Assembly (NCBI RefSeq): GCF_021608225.1
Contig: NZ_JAKIJS010000001.1
Coordinates: 558,001-622,000 of the forward strand
Reading direction: 5' to 3'
Origin: Pseudalkalibacillus berkeleyi
GTDB lineage: Bacteria > Bacillota > Bacilli > Bacillales > Fictibacillaceae
DNA: 64,000 bases
Shown here one piece after another: positions 1,659 to 13,732 of the stretch. A program made the position numbers and the translations under genes. The notes beneath the pieces are model-generated. The model was not told the origin of the DNA. It saw only the letters and a program-made list of their open reading frames with translations, and did not search any database. Numbering within the stretch: position 1 is the first letter of the stretch; the number at the start of each line of letters is the position of its first letter.

Positions 1659-3314
<1,656 letters not shown>

Positions 3315-3514
3315 TTAACTAGAGTCGTCAAAACTCAAGTAGACATAGCTTAACTCATTTTTAGAATAGTTTGAATACTAAAACAATTAAACGCCACTCG
3401 ATACCTAGTTATTCGATAAAAAAGAGTCGTTAAATAGGAAATAAGGCGGGATTAAGAGGGAGGTTAATACGAAGGATGTAGAATAATCTCAGTACAGATC
3501 GAATTCAATGTCAT

Positions 3515-3553
3515 AAAAAATAGGAGTGACCTCGATTCGCTCAAGGTCACTCC
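3515..3553 (-). terminator. Terminator of the M29 aminopeptidase gene
   Basis: GGAGTGACCT and GGTCACTCC form a stem of about 9 bp. On the minus strand it is followed by TATTTTTTATG. It lies about 20 bases after the aminopeptidase stop codon. Confidence 0.8.
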
Positions 3554-3574
3554 ATATTCAATATGGTAATTAAA

Positions 3575-4810
3575 TTAGATAGCCCAGTTTCCGTCTTTAA
3601 AGAGTTGTACTTTTTCCCCTTCTTGCGTTTCTGCAACGATGTCTAGATCGGCAGAACCGATCATGAAGTCCGTGTGTCCTCGACTTTGGTTTACGCCAAT
3701 TTCCTCAAGCTCTTCTTTCTGAAGGTGGCCAACCTCTTTTACAGACATTGTAATAGATGTTCCGATTGCCAAGTGACAGGCTGCATTTTCATCATATAAT
3801 GTATTGTTGAAGATAATTCCTGAGTTTGAAATAGGTGAGTCATAAGGTACGAGTGCCACTTCACCTAAATACTTCATTCCATCATCAATATTCAACAATT
3901 GCTCAAGTGTTTCGTATCCTTTTTCAGCTGAAAAATCGACAACTTTTCCATCTTTAAACGTTAAACTGAAGTTATCAATTAAATTACCCATTGCTGAGAG
4001 TGGCTTTTTACTAGCAACCGTACCATTGACACCATTTTTGAGTGGTGTTGTAAATACCTCTTCTGTTGGAAGATTCGGTATGTAGGATGTGTCGATTGTT
4101 GAATTATGTCCGCCACCGATCCATAGGTGATCTGGGTGAAGATCGATACTTAAATCTGTACCTTCAGATTTATAGTGGAGCGTTTTAAATTGCTTTTCGT
4201 TTAAGTAATTCACTTTTTCAGTCAATGTATTCGTATGTTCTTCCCAAGCTGCAACGGGATCTTCTTGGTCAATTCGCACGGTTTTGAAGATTGCTTCCCA
4301 TAGAGCGTCAATGGCTTCTTGTTCACTCAATTCAGGGAACACGCTCTTAGCCCAGCCAGAAGTAGGAACCCCAGCAATCGCCCAGTGCATATCACCGTTT
4401 AATTGTGCTTTAGAAAATGCTTGAAGCTTTTCTCCTTTATCCTTTTGGACCCACATTAAACGCTCAGGAGCAACACCGCTAAACGCATTAGGGTCATCTC
4501 CCGTGATATTCAGCATCGCATCGTTATGTTCTGCTAAACTATTTAACTTGTCAACGTCCCAAGGTTGAAGATTATCTTTCAACGTTTCCTCAGATGCACC
4601 TTCTAAATGTAAACGTGAGGTTGCACTATCATTCCAGTTGACAAACACGTGCTTACATCCGTTATCGTACGCATGCTTAGTCACCTTACGTGTGAAGTCT
4701 TTCGCTTCAATTGGAGAAAGGATCAGCAAACGTTGTCCTTCCTGGATATTCAATCCGATTTTTACAACTAGTTCAGCATATTGATCTAACTTTTGTTCAA
4801 ATGTTTTCAT
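3575..4810 (-). CDS. M29 family aminopeptidase (AmpS / aminopeptidase T type)
   Basis: The 411-residue cytoplasmic protein matches the clan of aminopeptidases T and S in length and order. The N-terminus reads KTFEQKLDQYAELVVKIGLNIQ. The C-terminal half has the metal-binding elements, including SAEKGYE, the ACHLAIG histidine and NQSRGHTDFMIGS. Members use two divalent metal ions to remove N-terminal residues from short peptides. Two ATG codons stand side by side after AGGAGG; I took the second (4810), which leaves a seven-base gap. The upstream extension MIIFSLGGV is not supported. The gene is monocistronic with its own terminator. Confidence 0.9.
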   Translation of the reverse strand: MKTFEQKLDQYAELVVKIGLNIQEGQRLLILSPIEAKDFTRKVTKHAYDNGCKHVFVNWNDSATSRLHLEGASEETLKDNLQPWDVDKLNSLAEHNDAMLNITGDDPNAFSGVAPERLMWVQKDKGEKLQAFSKAQLNGDMHWAIAGVPTSGWAKSVFPELSEQEAIDALWEAIFKTVRIDQEDPVAAWEEHTNTLTEKVNYLNEKQFKTLHYKSEGTDLSIDLHPDHLWIGGGHNSTIDTSYIPNLPTEEVFTTPLKNGVNGTVASKKPLSAMGNLIDNFSLTFKDGKVVDFSAEKGYETLEQLLNIDDGMKYLGEVALVPYDSPISNSGIIFNNTLYDENAACHLAIGTSITMSVKEVGHLQKEELEEIGVNQSRGHTDFMIGSADLDIVAETQEGEKVQLFKDGNWAI

Positions 4811-7768: not shown

Positions 7769-8635
7769 ATGTCAAAAAATATAAAAGAGAAAAATAATGT
7801 GAATAAGCTAGCAGAGTTATTACTTGGAAACAAAGAAAAAATTGCAAGTGAAATTGTCGAACTTAGAATGAAGGATATAACGACCGATAATGACTTCTTC
7901 ACTGAAGAGTCATTAAAAGAACGAGCACTGGATATGATCACCTTGATTGGTGATAATCTCAATTGTGATGTTCATTCAGATATTGAAGAAGTCGTCAAAT
8001 GGGGTTCTGACAAAGGGAAACAAGCAGTTGTAGTAGAAGCACCACTTTCGGAAGCATTGAGGAATACGCCTTATTACCGGAAAGTGTTATGGACTTACAT
8101 TGCTGAACTTTCAAAAGACGAAGATTTCTCCAAGGATGAAATCATTCAAATCGCTAATCGACTTGACCCGATATTGGATCAGGCTGTTTATGGATACAGT
8201 AAAAGTTATGTAGAGTACAATATTGAAATTGCTATGAGATACCAAGATGCACTATTGGAATTATCCGTACCTGTTGTTCCGCTATTTGAGGGAATTGCAG
8301 TTCTTCCAATCATCGGAGACATCGATACGAATCGAGCTCAGCATATTACAGACAAAACGATAGAGCGTTGTGAGGAATTGAAGTTAGAACGCATCATCAT
8401 TGACCTTTCAGGAGTAAACATCGTTGATACGATGGTTGCCCAACATTTATTTCAACTTGTAAAAACATTGCGTCTCCTCGGTGTGAAATCGGCCATTACT
8501 GGCATTCGCTCAGCAGTTGCCATTACTGCTGTTAATTTAGGTATTGAACTAAATGATTTAAATATATTTACGACATTACAACAAGCTTTAGAGGCTTTAG
8601 GTTATAAAAGAGTGAACGAAGAAACCATTCACTAA
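7769..8635 (+). CDS. RsbR-type stressosome protein with STAS domain
   Basis: The 288-residue protein has a variable N-terminal sensor-like helical domain (to about residue 165) and a C-terminal STAS domain. The STAS part holds the two threonines equivalent to the RsbT-phosphorylated sites of RsbRA: T221 in VDTMVA and T253 in AVAITAV. RsbR proteins co-assemble with RsbS into stressosomes that sequester the kinase RsbT and control sigma-B. I chose the ATG at 7769 after AAGGGGTAAGG over a TTG at 7721 that would add 16 residues. A paralogue of identical length is at 35252-36118. No rsbS or rsbT is nearby. Confidence 0.85.
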   Translation: MSKNIKEKNNVNKLAELLLGNKEKIASEIVELRMKDITTDNDFFTEESLKERALDMITLIGDNLNCDVHSDIEEVVKWGSDKGKQAVVVEAPLSEALRNTPYYRKVLWTYIAELSKDEDFSKDEIIQIANRLDPILDQAVYGYSKSYVEYNIEIAMRYQDALLELSVPVVPLFEGIAVLPIIGDIDTNRAQHITDKTIERCEELKLERIIIDLSGVNIVDTMVAQHLFQLVKTLRLLGVKSAITGIRSAVAITAVNLGIELNDLNIFTTLQQALEALGYKRVNEETIH

Positions 8636-8650
8636 AGAAAGTGGGGTCAA

Positions 8651-9004
8651 ATGAGAAAGTACATCAATTGGGAAATTGTTGTATTGCTCTTGGCTTTACA
8701 ATGGTTAATCAATCCATTTGGTTTTGATTTGAATGACTTGTTTATGGAACGTGTCTTTCTAATTGTTTTCTTTGCTTTACGACTCGTTATTGTAGTTTTT
8801 AAAATTACGTTCTCGACGAGGGTTTTCTGGATGTTTACATTAACTTTTGGCTTTATTGGAACAGTTTTTACGTTAAACCTATTTTTCACCGGAAAGGAAC
8901 AGATTGCTTCAATTTTTGCAAGCCTAGTGATCCCACTACTTATTGATGATTATAAGAAATGGTTTGGCAAATCTTCTGAAGCCGAACAAACTACTAGCTA
9001 TTGA
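8651..9004 (+). CDS. Hypothetical membrane protein
   Basis: The 117-residue protein has three to four predicted membrane helices: about residues 8-24, 32-52, 56-76 and 84-98. A short charged cytoplasmic tail follows. It begins 15 bases after the RsbR paralogue with GTGGGG as ribosome site, so the two are probably co-transcribed. Its end overlaps the convergent gene at 8998 by seven bases. I do not recognise the family. Confidence 0.65.
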   Translation: MRKYINWEIVVLLLALQWLINPFGFDLNDLFMERVFLIVFFALRLVIVVFKITFSTRVFWMFTLTFGFIGTVFTLNLFFTGKEQIASIFASLVIPLLIDDYKKWFGKSSEAEQTTSY

Positions 9005-9258
9005 AGGTAGTCGCCTGTGTAATCTTGACCTAAGGTTACATGGCCGATGCCTTCTTCTGCTAGTTTCTTTTGTAATTGATCAATGATGTATAAAGTGACC
9101 ATCTCGCATAAATTTTCTTGCGATAACTCATTCAGTTGATCGAAGATATCCTCCTTAGTTTTGGCCTCTAGGACGCCATAAATTATCGGATAAATATCTT
9201 CCTCATCTGCTGAAAAATGGTCCTTGTACGTATCGTATAATTCATCCACTAATTTCAT
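8998..9258 (-). CDS. Small acidic protein resembling DUF6154
   Basis: The 86-residue acidic helical protein has the order KLVDELYDTYK, DEEDIYPIIYGVLE and YIIDQLQKKLAEEG. I associate this order with the Bacillaceae family DUF6154, whose function is unknown. GAGGTGAG precedes the ATG. It converges with the membrane protein gene and overlaps it by seven bases, with no room for a terminator between them. Confidence 0.6.
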   Translation of the reverse strand: MKLVDELYDTYKDHFSADEEDIYPIIYGVLEAKTKEDIFDQLNELSQENLCEMVTLYIIDQLQKKLAEEGIGHVTLGQDYTGDYLQ

Positions 9259-9393
9259 CTATCCACTCACCTCAAGTGTAATGTTCCCATGTCATTTAAT
9301 CCTCATACGTTTTGAAATATGATCTAATATTTTATAAAATATAGGTATAATATCAAGCAAAGCATTCATAATAAAAAATGTGCTGTTGAAGAT

Positions 9394-9468
9394 TGGGCTA
9401 TAGCCAAGCGGTAAGGCAACGGACTTTGACTCCGTCATGCGTTGGTTCGAATCCAGCTAGCCCAGCCA
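9394..9468 (+). tRNA. trnQ: tRNA-Gln (anticodon UUG)
   Basis: The 75-nt cloverleaf is complete: acceptor TGGGCTA pairs with TAGCCCA, the D arm contains AGCCAAGCGGTAAGGC, the anticodon loop is CTTTGAC with anticodon TTG, and the T arm contains GGTTCGAATCC. The 3' CCA is encoded. The acceptor and anticodon match Bacillus tRNA-Gln. It is a single tRNA with its own terminator. Confidence 0.97.
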
Positions 9469-9477
9469 TACATATTA

Positions 9478-9503
9478 AACACTCTACTCAGAGTGTTTTT
9501 TTT
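9478..9503 (+). terminator. Terminator of the tRNA gene
   Basis: AACACTCT and AGAGTGTT form a perfect 8-bp stem with a 4-base loop, followed by a T run. It starts ten bases after the tRNA end. Confidence 0.9.
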
Positions 9504-9614
9504 ATTGGAGGAAGGGAAATTTAAGCATATTGTTGGAACGATCGATAGAGTGCTGATAACATAATAAACACTAATAAAAGGATATAAACTATAAAAAAGG
9601 AAGAGGGATATTGA

Positions 9615-10724
9615 ATGACAACACAATTACTTACTAAAGGTTTCCTAGGACATTTATCTCTAAAGAACCGATATATCGTTGCACCAATGACACGTGTAAG
9701 TGCGGAGCCGAATGGAGTGCCGAATCAACAAATGAAGGAGTACTATGAGCGTTATGCAAAAGGTGGATTCGGGACCATTATTACAGAAGGTGTTTATTTG
9801 GATGAGACCTATAGCCAAGGTTATCTCAAACAACCTGGACTTGCGAACAAAAAACATACAGATGCTTGGAAACCCATTGTTGAAAGCGTGCACGTTCATG
9901 ACACAAAAATGATTGCTCAATTAATGCATGCTGGTGGGCAAGCACAAGGAAATGCTTATAAAGATGAAACGATTGCACCGTCTGCGGTTGCTCCAAAAGG
10001 AGAACAGCTTCCTTTCTATGGTGGTTCTGGACCTTTCGATACGCCAAATGAAATTTCAGCAGACCAAATTAACGAAGTGAAACAGGCGTTTGCCAAAGCA
10101 GCAAGAAATGCGAAAGATGCTGGTTTTGATGGTGTTGAGATCCATGGTGCAAATGGATATCTACTAGATCAATTCTTAACAGATTATTTGAACAAACGAG
10201 ATGATCAATATGGAGGATCACTCGAAAAACGATTGCAATTCACGCTCGAAGTGATTGATGAAGTCCGTCAATCTGTAGGTGACGACTACTTAGTCGGTAT
10301 TCGCATATCCCAAGGTAAAGTTGCCGACCAAGCGCACAAATGGCCGAACGGAGAAAAAGATGCAGAATATATCTTCAGTCAACTAGGAAATACCTCTTTA
10401 GATTACATTCATGTTACTGACAGAGATGCAACGGAAGCAAGTTTTGGTGAAGGAACCAAAACGCTAGCTGGTGCTGCAAAAACGTTTAGTAATCTACCGA
10501 CAATTGCAAATGGTGGATTAGTGGATCAACAAAAAGCTGAAGCGTTAATTGTAAACGGAGAAGCAGACTTTGTTAGTGTTGGAACCGGAGCATTGGCGAA
10601 TCCTGACTTACCAAATCGCGTGGAAAAAGGGATTGAGCTAAACGAATTCAACGCAAAAGCCATTCTAATGCCACGAGCAGAAATTAAAGAACATGAGTTA
10701 AAAGCAGAAGTAATACAAAATTAA
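9615..10724 (+). CDS. NADH:flavin oxidoreductase, old yellow enzyme family
   Basis: The 369-residue TIM-barrel flavoprotein shows the FMN-binding N-terminus RYIVAPMTRVS, the AQLMHAGGQ strand and the catalytic region GVEIHGANGYLLDQFL. The phosphate-binding IANGGLV and VSVGTGALANPDLP segments follow. Members reduce the C=C bond of unsaturated carbonyl compounds with NAD(P)H. The threonine after APM places it with classical OYE-like enzymes rather than with the YqjM type, which has cysteine there. The gene has its own terminator and no operon partner. The physiological substrate is unknown. Confidence 0.9.
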   Translation: MTTQLLTKGFLGHLSLKNRYIVAPMTRVSAEPNGVPNQQMKEYYERYAKGGFGTIITEGVYLDETYSQGYLKQPGLANKKHTDAWKPIVESVHVHDTKMIAQLMHAGGQAQGNAYKDETIAPSAVAPKGEQLPFYGGSGPFDTPNEISADQINEVKQAFAKAARNAKDAGFDGVEIHGANGYLLDQFLTDYLNKRDDQYGGSLEKRLQFTLEVIDEVRQSVGDDYLVGIRISQGKVADQAHKWPNGEKDAEYIFSQLGNTSLDYIHVTDRDATEASFGEGTKTLAGAAKTFSNLPTIANGGLVDQQKAEALIVNGEADFVSVGTGALANPDLPNRVEKGIELNEFNAKAILMPRAEIKEHELKAEVIQN

Positions 10725-11617: not shown

Positions 11618-11647
11618 TTGACAAAACGACCTATATTCCGACATAAT
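11618..11647 (+). promoter_or_regulatory. Promoter of the glycine riboswitch / serine dehydratase operon
   Basis: TTGACA and CATAAT are spaced by 18 bases and would start transcription about 25 bases before the first aptamer. The elements fit the housekeeping sigma-A consensus. Confidence 0.65.
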
Positions 11648-11676
11648 GGTAATAGAATAGTATACGCGAATGAAGG

Positions 11677-11840
11677 TCGTGGGAGAGTCGGAAGTAAAAA
11701 ACCGACACCGAAGGAGCAAGTTCCAAAAAACCATGGAGCAAATCTCTCAGGTAAATGAACTACGATCTGACGCATCTCTGGAGAGAGCGAGAGCCACCAA
11801 AGGGGTACCAATGAAAACTCTCAGGTTACAAGGACAGAGC
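11677..11840 (+). ncRNA. Tandem glycine riboswitch
   Basis: Two glycine aptamers stand in series. The first has GGGAGAG, ACCGAAGGAGCAA and AATCTCTCAGGTAAA with the linker ACTACGATCTGACG. The second has CTCTGGAGAGAGC, CACCAAAGGGGTA and AACTCTCAGG followed by AAGGACAGAG. These are the conserved blocks of the gcvT-type riboswitch. P1 of aptamer II pairs CTCTG (11776-11780) with CAGAG (11835-11839). That CAGAG is also part of the 5' arm of the following terminator, so glycine binding should block termination and switch the operon on. The controlled genes here are serine dehydratase genes, not a glycine cleavage operon. Confidence 0.93.
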
Positions 11841-11869
11841 GGGTGAACAACACCTTCTTTGTCCTTTTT
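11830..11869 (+). terminator. Riboswitch expression-platform terminator
   Basis: AAGGACAGAG (11830-11839) pairs with CTTTGTCCTT (11857-11866) and ends in TTT. The 5' arm overlaps the 3' strand of aptamer II P1, so the two structures exclude each other. Confidence 0.85.
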
Positions 11870-11927
11870 GTGTGGATTTATTTTGATGTGAATACCGTTC
11901 TCTATTTGAATAGGAGGCGTTTAAATT

Positions 11928-12425
11928 ATGGGATATAACAGTTGTTTTGATATTATTGGACCGATCATGGTTGGACCATCTAGTTCACATACAGCAGGAG
12001 CCGTATGGATCGGAAGAGCAGCATTTGAATTGTTAGGTGGAAGCCCAGAACAAGTTGAAATTCAACTCTTTGATTCGTTTGCAGAAACGTATCAAGGACA
12101 TGGGACAGATAAAGCTTTACTTGGTGGATTATTAGGCTACGATACCGAAGATGAGCGAATAAAACTTGCGTATGATTTAGCTGAAGAGGCGAATCTCACC
12201 TATACATTTACTTTCGAAGAAAATTGTCTTGAGTACGAACACCCGAATGTAGCGATCCTTCATGCGAAATTGGGAACAAAGAAAGTTGTCATTGGAGGCG
12301 CATCAGTAGGTGGCGGTTTATCGAAAATCTTTCGCATAAATGATGAAAAGGTTGATTTTACATTAAGTACGCATGATGACTTGGACCGGATTATTCAATC
12401 TGCGTCTGAGCTTGTTGGTCAATAA
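11928..12425 (+). CDS. sdaAB: L-serine dehydratase beta subunit, ACT-less
   Basis: The 165-residue chain matches the beta domain of iron-sulfur L-serine dehydratase: FDIIGPIMVGPSSSHTAG at the N-terminus, then FAETYQGHGTDKALLGGLLGY. It pairs with SdaAA to deaminate L-serine to pyruvate and ammonia. The B. subtilis type is about 220 residues long because a C-terminal ACT domain follows. Here the chain stops after the beta domain and only 17 bases separate it from sdaAA, so the ACT domain is absent rather than split off. AGGAGG lies 10 bases before the ATG. It is the first gene behind the glycine riboswitch. Confidence 0.92.
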   Translation: MGYNSCFDIIGPIMVGPSSSHTAGAVWIGRAAFELLGGSPEQVEIQLFDSFAETYQGHGTDKALLGGLLGYDTEDERIKLAYDLAEEANLTYTFTFEENCLEYEHPNVAILHAKLGTKKVVIGGASVGGGLSKIFRINDEKVDFTLSTHDDLDRIIQSASELVGQ

Positions 12426-12442
12426 TTGTGGAGGTGAGCAGT

Positions 12443-13417
12443 ATGGATATTCAATCTACCGTAGATTTACTCGAATATTGTGAGCGTGAAAACAAAACAA
12501 TTGCTGAAGCGATGATTGATCAGGAACAAGAGAAGTCAGGACGGACGAAAGAGCAAATTTTCGAGATGATGAAAGAGCGTTTACTGAAAATGCAAAATGC
12601 AGTGGATCAAGGACTAACGGATTCTTCCACTGCACCAAGTGGAATTTCTGGTGGAGACGCTGTAAAAATGAAAGCTTATATTGAAGCAGGAGATGTATTA
12701 TCTGGTTCAATTATTAGTGATGCGATGGCTTGTTCAATGGCAACTTCAGAAGGTAATGCAAGAATGGGTGTCATTGTTGCAACGCCAACAGCTGGAGCTG
12801 CAGGAATTTTACCAGGTGTATTATTTTCACTTAAGAAAAATACAAATTTAGAAAACGACGATCTTGTGATGGGATTGTTTACAGCTAGTATGCTTGGCTA
12901 TATTATCGCCAATCGTTCATTCATTTCAGGAGCTGCTGGTGGATGCCAAGCTGAAGTCGGCTCAGCAACTGCAATGGCTGCTGGCACCATTGTTGAGTTA
13001 AAAGGCGGGTCTCCAAGAGAAGCGGTCCATGCAACAGCGATGGCGATGAAATCCCTTCTCGGGCTCGTTTGTGATCCAGTCGCTGGACTAGTAGAAGTAC
13101 CATGTATTAAACGAAACGTTATAGGTACTTCAATTGCATTTTCATCTGCAGACATGGGTCTAGCTGGAATTGAAAGTCGCATACCATGTGACGAAGTGAT
13201 TGATACGATGTATGATATTGGTAAGAATATGCCACGCGCTCTAAAAGAGACCGCACTTGGAGGACTAGCGATTACGCCGACAGGTCAGAAGGTCAAAGAG
13301 CGTTTGTTCTCAAAAACGGGTCTTGTGAATCAGCTTGGAGGAGGAAAGGATCATGCATCTAACAATCACGGACAAAGCGATTCATCAGTTGAACCAATTG
13401 AAGCTGGAAGAAAATAA
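12443..13417 (+). CDS. sdaAA: L-serine dehydratase alpha subunit (4Fe-4S)
   Basis: The 324-residue catalytic chain has the three cluster-ligand cysteines C168 (GGCQAE), C210 (VCDPVAG) and C221 (VPCIKRN). Their spacings of 42 and 11 residues equal those known for the Legionella enzyme (C343, C385, C396). It binds an oxygen-labile 4Fe-4S cluster that activates serine for dehydration. The ATG at 12443 lies six bases after GGAGGTG; a GTG at 12428 would add five residues. The last 22 residues form an unusual polar tail (ASNNHGQSDSSVEPIEAGRK) encoded in the 65 bases that overlap the next gene. Confidence 0.93.
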   Translation: MDIQSTVDLLEYCERENKTIAEAMIDQEQEKSGRTKEQIFEMMKERLLKMQNAVDQGLTDSSTAPSGISGGDAVKMKAYIEAGDVLSGSIISDAMACSMATSEGNARMGVIVATPTAGAAGILPGVLFSLKKNTNLENDDLVMGLFTASMLGYIIANRSFISGAAGGCQAEVGSATAMAAGTIVELKGGSPREAVHATAMAMKSLLGLVCDPVAGLVEVPCIKRNVIGTSIAFSSADMGLAGIESRIPCDEVIDTMYDIGKNMPRALKETALGGLAITPTGQKVKERLFSKTGLVNQLGGGKDHASNNHGQSDSSVEPIEAGRK

Positions 13418-13658
13418 AATCCTTCGCATTGATGCAGAAATGCAAGGTGGATGCGGCACGATGATGAAGTTCAAATTAATTGAAGATGATACCCGGAAAG
13501 GCGATATAGTGTTGCATGCTGACGGAATGAACTTTCACGTGGATCTCTTCACAAAGAGAAACTTAGATGATGAATTAACCTTGGATTATGATAAAGAAAC
13601 AGGATTTCTCTTCGAATCCGAATGGGGTCCAATGGGCCTTGAATGCCACTTAGCGTAA
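13353..13658 (+). CDS. HesB/YneR-like iron-sulfur domain protein
   Basis: The 101-residue protein resembles the HesB-like group (B. subtilis YneR/YqkB), relatives of A-type iron-sulfur carriers. It starts LTITDKAIHQL, has the QGGCGTMMKF turn and ends GLECHLA, with two cysteines placed like those of the family. It starts inside sdaAA, with GGAGGAGGAAAGG upstream of ATG 13353, and overlaps it by 65 bases in another frame. Co-translation suggests that it serves the dehydratase cluster, but this is an inference. Many members of this group have no proven cluster role. Confidence 0.75.
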   Translation: MHLTITDKAIHQLNQLKLEENKILRIDAEMQGGCGTMMKFKLIEDDTRKGDIVLHADGMNFHVDLFTKRNLDDELTLDYDKETGFLFESEWGPMGLECHLA

Positions 13659-13690
13659 GTAGTAGTGTCTCAAATGTTCATATAGTAAAA

Positions 13691-13732
13691 TAAGCCTAAG
13701 TAGAATGATTGCCTCTACTTAGGCTTATTTTT
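13691..13732 (+). terminator. Terminator of the serine dehydratase operon
   Basis: A perfect 13-bp stem (TAAGCCTAAGTAG with its complement) has an 11-base loop and a T-rich tail. Confidence 0.9.

Follow-up and report, generated by a model that had tools for sequence, protein, structure and literature searches.

Why should a sensor of glycine stand in front of genes for the breakdown of serine? This question is raised by a locus of Pseudalkalibacillus berkeleyi that lies within the 64,000-nucleotide stretch of DNA analysed here (the window), where a preliminary description had noticed a tandem glycine riboswitch ahead of sdaAB-sdaAA and a HesB-like gene. We believe, with high confidence, that the sda leader is a transcriptional ON glycine riboswitch for a serine drain, through which the cell probably burns off excess glycine. 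The RNA parts, their overlapping alternative pairing, the gene content and the conserved linkage are all directly visible in this locus and its relatives.

The features of the locus are collected in Table 1. The promoter recurs in the genus, with TTGACA and an ATAAT-type -10 element at about equal distance to the switch in 7 of the 7 genus leaders inspected. Both aptamers that had been read from the sequence are present. Aptamer I belongs to the glycine riboswitch family RF00504, scoring 62.9 bits where the gathering score is 32, and it alone passes: the Rfam search reported nothing over the gathering scores at aptamer II. The second is found by R2, a covariance model of 17 aptamer IIs from other genera with zero rows from the window's genus, which matches 11773-11842 with 57.5 bits (E 6.3e-14; search space of 155,007 bases) and whose best match outside the aptamers reaches 16.5 bits. 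A 19-row model (R1), two rows of which come from the window's genus (the gcvT switch of the window's own genome, L001, and a glyA switch, L064), gives aptamer II 62.8 bits. R2 also scores 58.2-65.9 bits on six other genus leaders and finds no aptamer II in P. salsuginis (L059). With a second aptamer directly 3' of the first across a k-turn linker, the leader has the tandem form. The two-aptamer clan model RF03166 covers 11666-11841 with 82.5 bits, below its gathering score of 110, and the J1/2 region is the standard GGAGAG in both aptamers. To the preliminary description we add that aptamer II is 70 nt long and has no P3b. It retains 29 of the 31 bases invariant across the 17 R2 rows, the two others lying one in the lost P3b and one in the flank, and all 28 bases invariant among the R1 rows; trimmed in this way, it may have lost its affinity for glycine. 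The folding z-score of 11660-11875 is -4.36, and none of 200 shuffles was equally stable.

Table 1. Features of the riboswitch-led sda operon (positions within the window)
Feature	Position	Strand	Evidence
Promoter TTGACA-N18-CATAAT	11618..11647	+	11 of 12 consensus bases
Leader-linker stem P0 with a k-turn (GCG 11666-11668 / CGC 11771-11773)	11666..11773	+	sequence reading; aligned within the RF03166 match
Glycine aptamer I	11670..11772	+	RF00504 62.9 bits, E 1.1e-10
Glycine aptamer II, trimmed (P2 of two pairs with GAGA cap, P3a kept, P3b lost)	11773..11842	+	R2 57.5 bits
Intrinsic terminator, 5' arm holding the aptamer II P1 3' strand (11835-11839)	11830..11869	+	hairpin -21.0 kcal/mol
sdaAB, L-serine dehydratase beta subunit	11928..12425	+	PF03315 over cut-off
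sdaAA, L-serine dehydratase alpha subunit, riboswitch-linked paralogue	12443..13417 from its ATG	+	TIGR00718
HesB-like gene, start codon within the sdaAA 3' end	13353..13658	+	PF01521 50.8 bits, cut-off 26.3
Operon-end hairpin followed by a T-run	13687..13731	+	18 pairs, -23.3 kcal/mol

The coordinates first proposed for the terminator and for the strand that it shares with aptamer II are correct: P1 pairs 11776-11780 with 11835-11839, and its 3' strand overlaps the terminator, an arrangement of the transcriptional ON type. All six ACAGAG bases are paired downstream in the terminator, and the ligand-free minimum-energy fold includes the hairpin 11830-11869. The same overlap is seen in 32 of the 32 leaders examined, the genome's own gcvT switch included. 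In 22 of these leaders, whose terminators were compared base pair by base pair, little change was seen in the outer pairs (exchanges between G-C and G-U and, in three leaders, A-U in place of G-C at a single position), and the inner pairs varied among G-C, A-U, U-A and C-G. Since the P1 3' strand sits in the 5' arm of a terminator that is part of the ligand-free fold, we predict an ON switch. ON switching was measured for the B. subtilis gcvT riboswitch in the consulted sections of PMC5666159, and it is by analogy with that switch that we infer both the direction and glycine as the ligand, which is not fixed by the family match alone. On this model, the terminator would form in the absence of glycine and transcription would end upstream of sdaAB; with glycine, the k-turn and P1 contacts would let the aptamers dock, the P1 of aptamer II would be held, the terminator would be blocked and sdaAB-sdaAA-HesB would be transcribed.

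The gene content agrees with the target named at the outset, as judged by the family matches TIGR00718, PF03315 and PF01521. SdaAA exceeds the cut-off of TIGR00718 (341.8 against 243.2 bits) and that of PF03313, and SdaAB falls slightly short of TIGR00719 (158.7 against 161.2 bits). SdaAA aligns with PDB 4rqo_A (E 1.7e-41), including the cysteines of GCQ, CDPV and PCI, which we take to be iron-sulphur cluster ligands; with these cysteines and an adjacent beta subunit, the pair is a two-subunit iron-sulphur L-serine dehydratase. The genome also contains a canonical sdaAB-sdaAA, beside which the riboswitch-linked paralogue may be dispensable, as its breakage in two of eight genus genomes and the sdaAA fragment of genome G424 would suggest; the two alpha subunits of the genome are 55% identical. 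One further glycine riboswitch, and no more, was found in the genome: it precedes the gcvT-gcvPA-gcvPB operon. The single glyA is unlinked and has no riboswitch. The route from glycine is indirect here because glyA is not under riboswitch control: the housekeeping GlyA would convert surplus glycine to serine, using one-carbon units that the glycine cleavage system supplies, and the dedicated dehydratase would turn this serine into pyruvate and ammonia, a direction of flux that we infer. A tRNA gene (RF00005) lies upstream of the sda locus at 9394-9465 of the window; several genus loci have one at the corresponding side, and in P. salsuginis it borders the deletion.

The HesB-like gene is the third gene in all eight genus loci. 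Its product is over the PF01521 cut-off and below those of TIGR00049 and ErpA. A-type iron-sulphur carriers (IscA/ErpA) have a C-terminal CxC in addition to a first cysteine. In an alignment of 13 rows, the first cysteine is conserved and the C-terminal end of the genus proteins is ECHLA, with no CxC, which places the protein apart from the A-type carriers. Because the PF01521 domain is present and the CxC absent, we can only guess from gene linkage what it does for the dehydratase: it would probably aid maturation of the enzyme's iron-sulphur cluster. HesB-like relatives occur in 32 of 398 class genomes, and we scanned the neighbourhoods of 20 of the 30 loci fetched. A glycine riboswitch lies directly upstream in five of these (L068, L070, L074, L077, L079), a sixth (L075) is about 1 kb past the end of a riboswitch-led operon, the window's own gene was among the 20 with its switch outside the scanned flank, and 13 of the 20 had no glycine riboswitch. 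The gene that follows resembles lpdA in L051 (where L079 lies; Pfam) and in Ammoniphilus (L077/L129; TIGR01350), and a split lpdA-like gene was read by eye in L068. The Ammoniphilus stretch runs riboswitch, HesB-like gene, lpdA, pdxS, two riboswitches and glyA.

Is the pairing of switch and dehydratase more than an accident of position? SdaAA of the window's type was found in its own genome and in 12 others of the 398 class genomes, at 65-73% identity and 414-453 bits, followed by matches of at most 57% identity and 338.4 bits; RF00504 was upstream in 12 of these 12 other genomes. Within the genus, riboswitch and paralogue adjoin in seven of eight genomes, with starts 0.8-1.6 kb apart, although the sdaAA of one of the seven (L060) contains stops. 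The eighth, P. salsuginis, has no recognisable leader, and its sda locus is truncated, with the 5' part of sdaAB missing. With five further loci (Natribacillus, Siminovitchia and three of Marinococcus), the comparison of downstream genes suggested earlier places the riboswitch at 24 of 25 distinct Bacilli loci with this SdaAA subfamily, P. salsuginis being the exception; genome G424, which has the switch and an operon with an sdaAA fragment only, was kept out of the 25. By comparison, RF00504 was found at none of 17 canonical sdaAA loci in the class scan (flanks up to 1.5 kb), and none of the family's 34 canonical copies is near a riboswitch on its own contig: 17 of them lie on a contig that also carries one, at a distance of 363 kb or more, and the contigs of the other 17 carry none. 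These controls lead us to reject chance adjacency of riboswitch and sda. In a tree of SdaAA, 22 riboswitch-linked and 17 canonical rows are separated by one branch with an SH-aLRT of 100; the software warned of long branches that meet between these groups. Across 398 genomes of the phylum, only the window's own genome returned the subfamily at E <= 1e-105, a threshold that distant relatives would escape.

The 25 loci, in which only genes resembling marker proteins were sought, form a series of operons behind the riboswitch. At five (L046 from Ammoniphilus, L047, L050, L051 and L052), the order is glyA-sdaAB-sdaAA-gcvT-gcvH-gcvPA-gcvPB, with gcvT and gcvPA apparently split in L052 and with GcvPA and GcvPB verified by NCBIfam in L046 alone. 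Three loci have glyA-sdaAB-sdaAA-gcvH and one (Natribacillus) the same order with a fragmented glyA; two have sdaAB-sdaAA-gcvH, two glyA-sdaAB-sdaAA (one at a contig end), four sdaAB-sdaAA alone, and the eight genus loci sda with the HesB-like gene, two of them broken. P. decolorationis has an extra tandem riboswitch before a separate glyA (L064). The proposed logic, in which GlyA makes serine from glycine and the dehydratase makes pyruvate, is supported because relatives place glyA-sdaAB-sdaAA behind the same kind of switch, five of them together with gcvT-gcvH-gcvPA-gcvPB; no other evidence favours it as strongly as these arrangements. The spread of the complete operon over the tree suggests that it is ancestral. 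On balance, we lean towards the view that certain Bacilli possess a regulon for burning glycine under riboswitch control, in which glycine serves as a carbon source and is finally turned into pyruvate, and that the window holds a shrunken descendant (sda and the HesB-like gene) whose aptamer II is becoming a ghost aptamer. Such a regulon would comprise a HesB-like Fe-S factor, lpdA, pdxS, glyA, the dedicated serine dehydratase and gcvT-gcvH-gcvPA-gcvPB, in some cases with lipA or purU, and could include up to three tandem glycine riboswitches within one stretch.

The state of aptamer II also bears on how the switch works. The leader could be a functional type-1 singlet, with glycine bound by aptamer I alone and the trimmed aptamer II in a structural supporting role, presenting P1 to the terminator, an arrangement with the same ON mechanism as the explanation we prefer and one to which we give a real, if minority, chance. 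All 7 genus sda leaders that were read have an aptamer II without P3b, whereas a hairpin persists at this place in the 17 aptamer IIs from other genera; in addition, the consulted sections of PMC5666159 describe a mutation in the binding pocket of B. subtilis aptamer II that leaves regulation unimpaired, and those of PMC6944388 report that, in the glycine-cleavage context, it is aptamer 1 that is conserved. Against this, the core of aptamer II is intact, as its invariant bases and R2 score indicate, unlike that of a ghost aptamer, so that the leader does not fall into the class of type-1 singlets with a ghost aptamer, and aptamer II is short, at 63 nt, in another switch as well (L052 11672).

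That the whole unit is an inherited relic in the course of being lost, with little present function in the genus, seems to us unlikely. Broken sda genes at two of eight genus loci (stops in L060, truncation in L059), the trimmed aptamer II and a canonical dehydratase in 34 of 34 family genomes would fit such decay, but sdaAB and sdaAA have full-length frames at six of the eight loci, promoter, both aptamers and terminator are retained, and in L059 loss of the switch accompanies loss of the gene. Even less probable is a variant aptamer that has changed its ligand, for example to serine or to that of the glycine-GGAnGA class (RF03166). Serine is the substrate of the target enzyme, and RF03166 scores above RF00504 here (82.5 versus 62.9 bits), but RF03166 models two aptamers and gains from the tandem layout while remaining below its gathering score, aptamer I reads GGGAGAG against its consensus cuAGA, the cores match those of glyA and gcvT switches, and relatives have glyA and gcvT behind the same switch. 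We therefore rejected RF03166 as the true class, given a two-aptamer model, a score short of 110 bits and a J1/2 without the variant. An ON switch for glycine remains our preferred reading.

The riboswitch class and its ON control by termination are already known, and the novelty is a new target of a known class. Like the B. subtilis gcvT switch, which according to the consulted sections of PMC5666159 has tandem aptamers, a kink-turn and a rho-independent terminator and turns on gcvT-gcvPA-gcvPB, the leader studied here has two aptamers, a kink-turn, a terminator and a predicted ON direction; it differs in its target, sdaAB-sdaAA-HesB, and in an aptamer II without P3b. Serine dehydratases linked to glycine riboswitches have been published for beta-proteobacteria, Mycobacterium and Streptomyces, the last with gcvT-gcvH-glyA-sdhA (PMC12452182, sections consulted), but these belong to other phyla, and the Bacilli case involves a two-subunit SdaAB/SdaAA paralogue and a HesB-like gene. 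The gcs2 cluster of Pseudomonas aeruginosa is controlled by a protein activator, GcsR, and not by RNA (PMC13104608, in part). Canonical Bacillus sdaAB-sdaAA, in the order yloU-yloV-sdaAB-sdaAA-recG given in part of PMC8226366, encodes a homologous enzyme, whereas its copies have no riboswitch nearby and form a separate clade. A survey of 48 Bacillaceae tandems, as far as covered by the consulted sections of PMC6944388, assigned 41 to glycine cleavage and 7 to transport, and our literature searches turned up no Bacilli serine dehydratase target, nor did the portions read, supplementary tables excluded, of PMC3766115, PMC12674515, PMC12452182, PMC8991567, PMC13104608, PMC6944388 and PMC8226366. 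The glycine regulon of Bacilli is extended by a subfamily of dedicated serine dehydratases and, through gene linkage, by a HesB-like Fe-S protein, and the operon series, from the full pathway down to two enzymes, offers a testable picture of a riboswitch that stays with its target while the operon and aptamer II shrink.

Several further glycine riboswitches and their neighbours were seen along the way. Two full tandem riboswitches, each with its own terminator, precede glyA in L046 (2952-3421) and in L052 (2913-3492). The formyltetrahydrofolate deformylase gene purU lies directly behind a glycine riboswitch at L132 3786-4682 (NCBIfam) and is the third gene of a riboswitch-led unit at L047 2334-3203 (Pfam); a riboswitch-led purU would remove one-carbon units. 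In G424, L130 6343-13598 holds glyA-gcvT-gcvH-gcvPA-gcvPB-lipA and an sdaAA fragment, with a split lpdA-like gene upstream. Genes for an ACT-domain protein and then a DUF711 protein lie directly 3' of a glycine riboswitch at L097 1650-3088. L128 has two copies of an amino-acid permease gene (about 2920-4205, which is split, and 8263-9813), each preceded by a glycine aptamer scoring about 52 bits; for the permease, the closest NCBIfam model, below its cut-off, is a D-serine/D-alanine/glycine transporter. Finally, an opposite-strand tandem glycine riboswitch at L052 10837-11672 precedes the gene for a putative UPF0126/TRIC-like membrane protein, named from its sequence.
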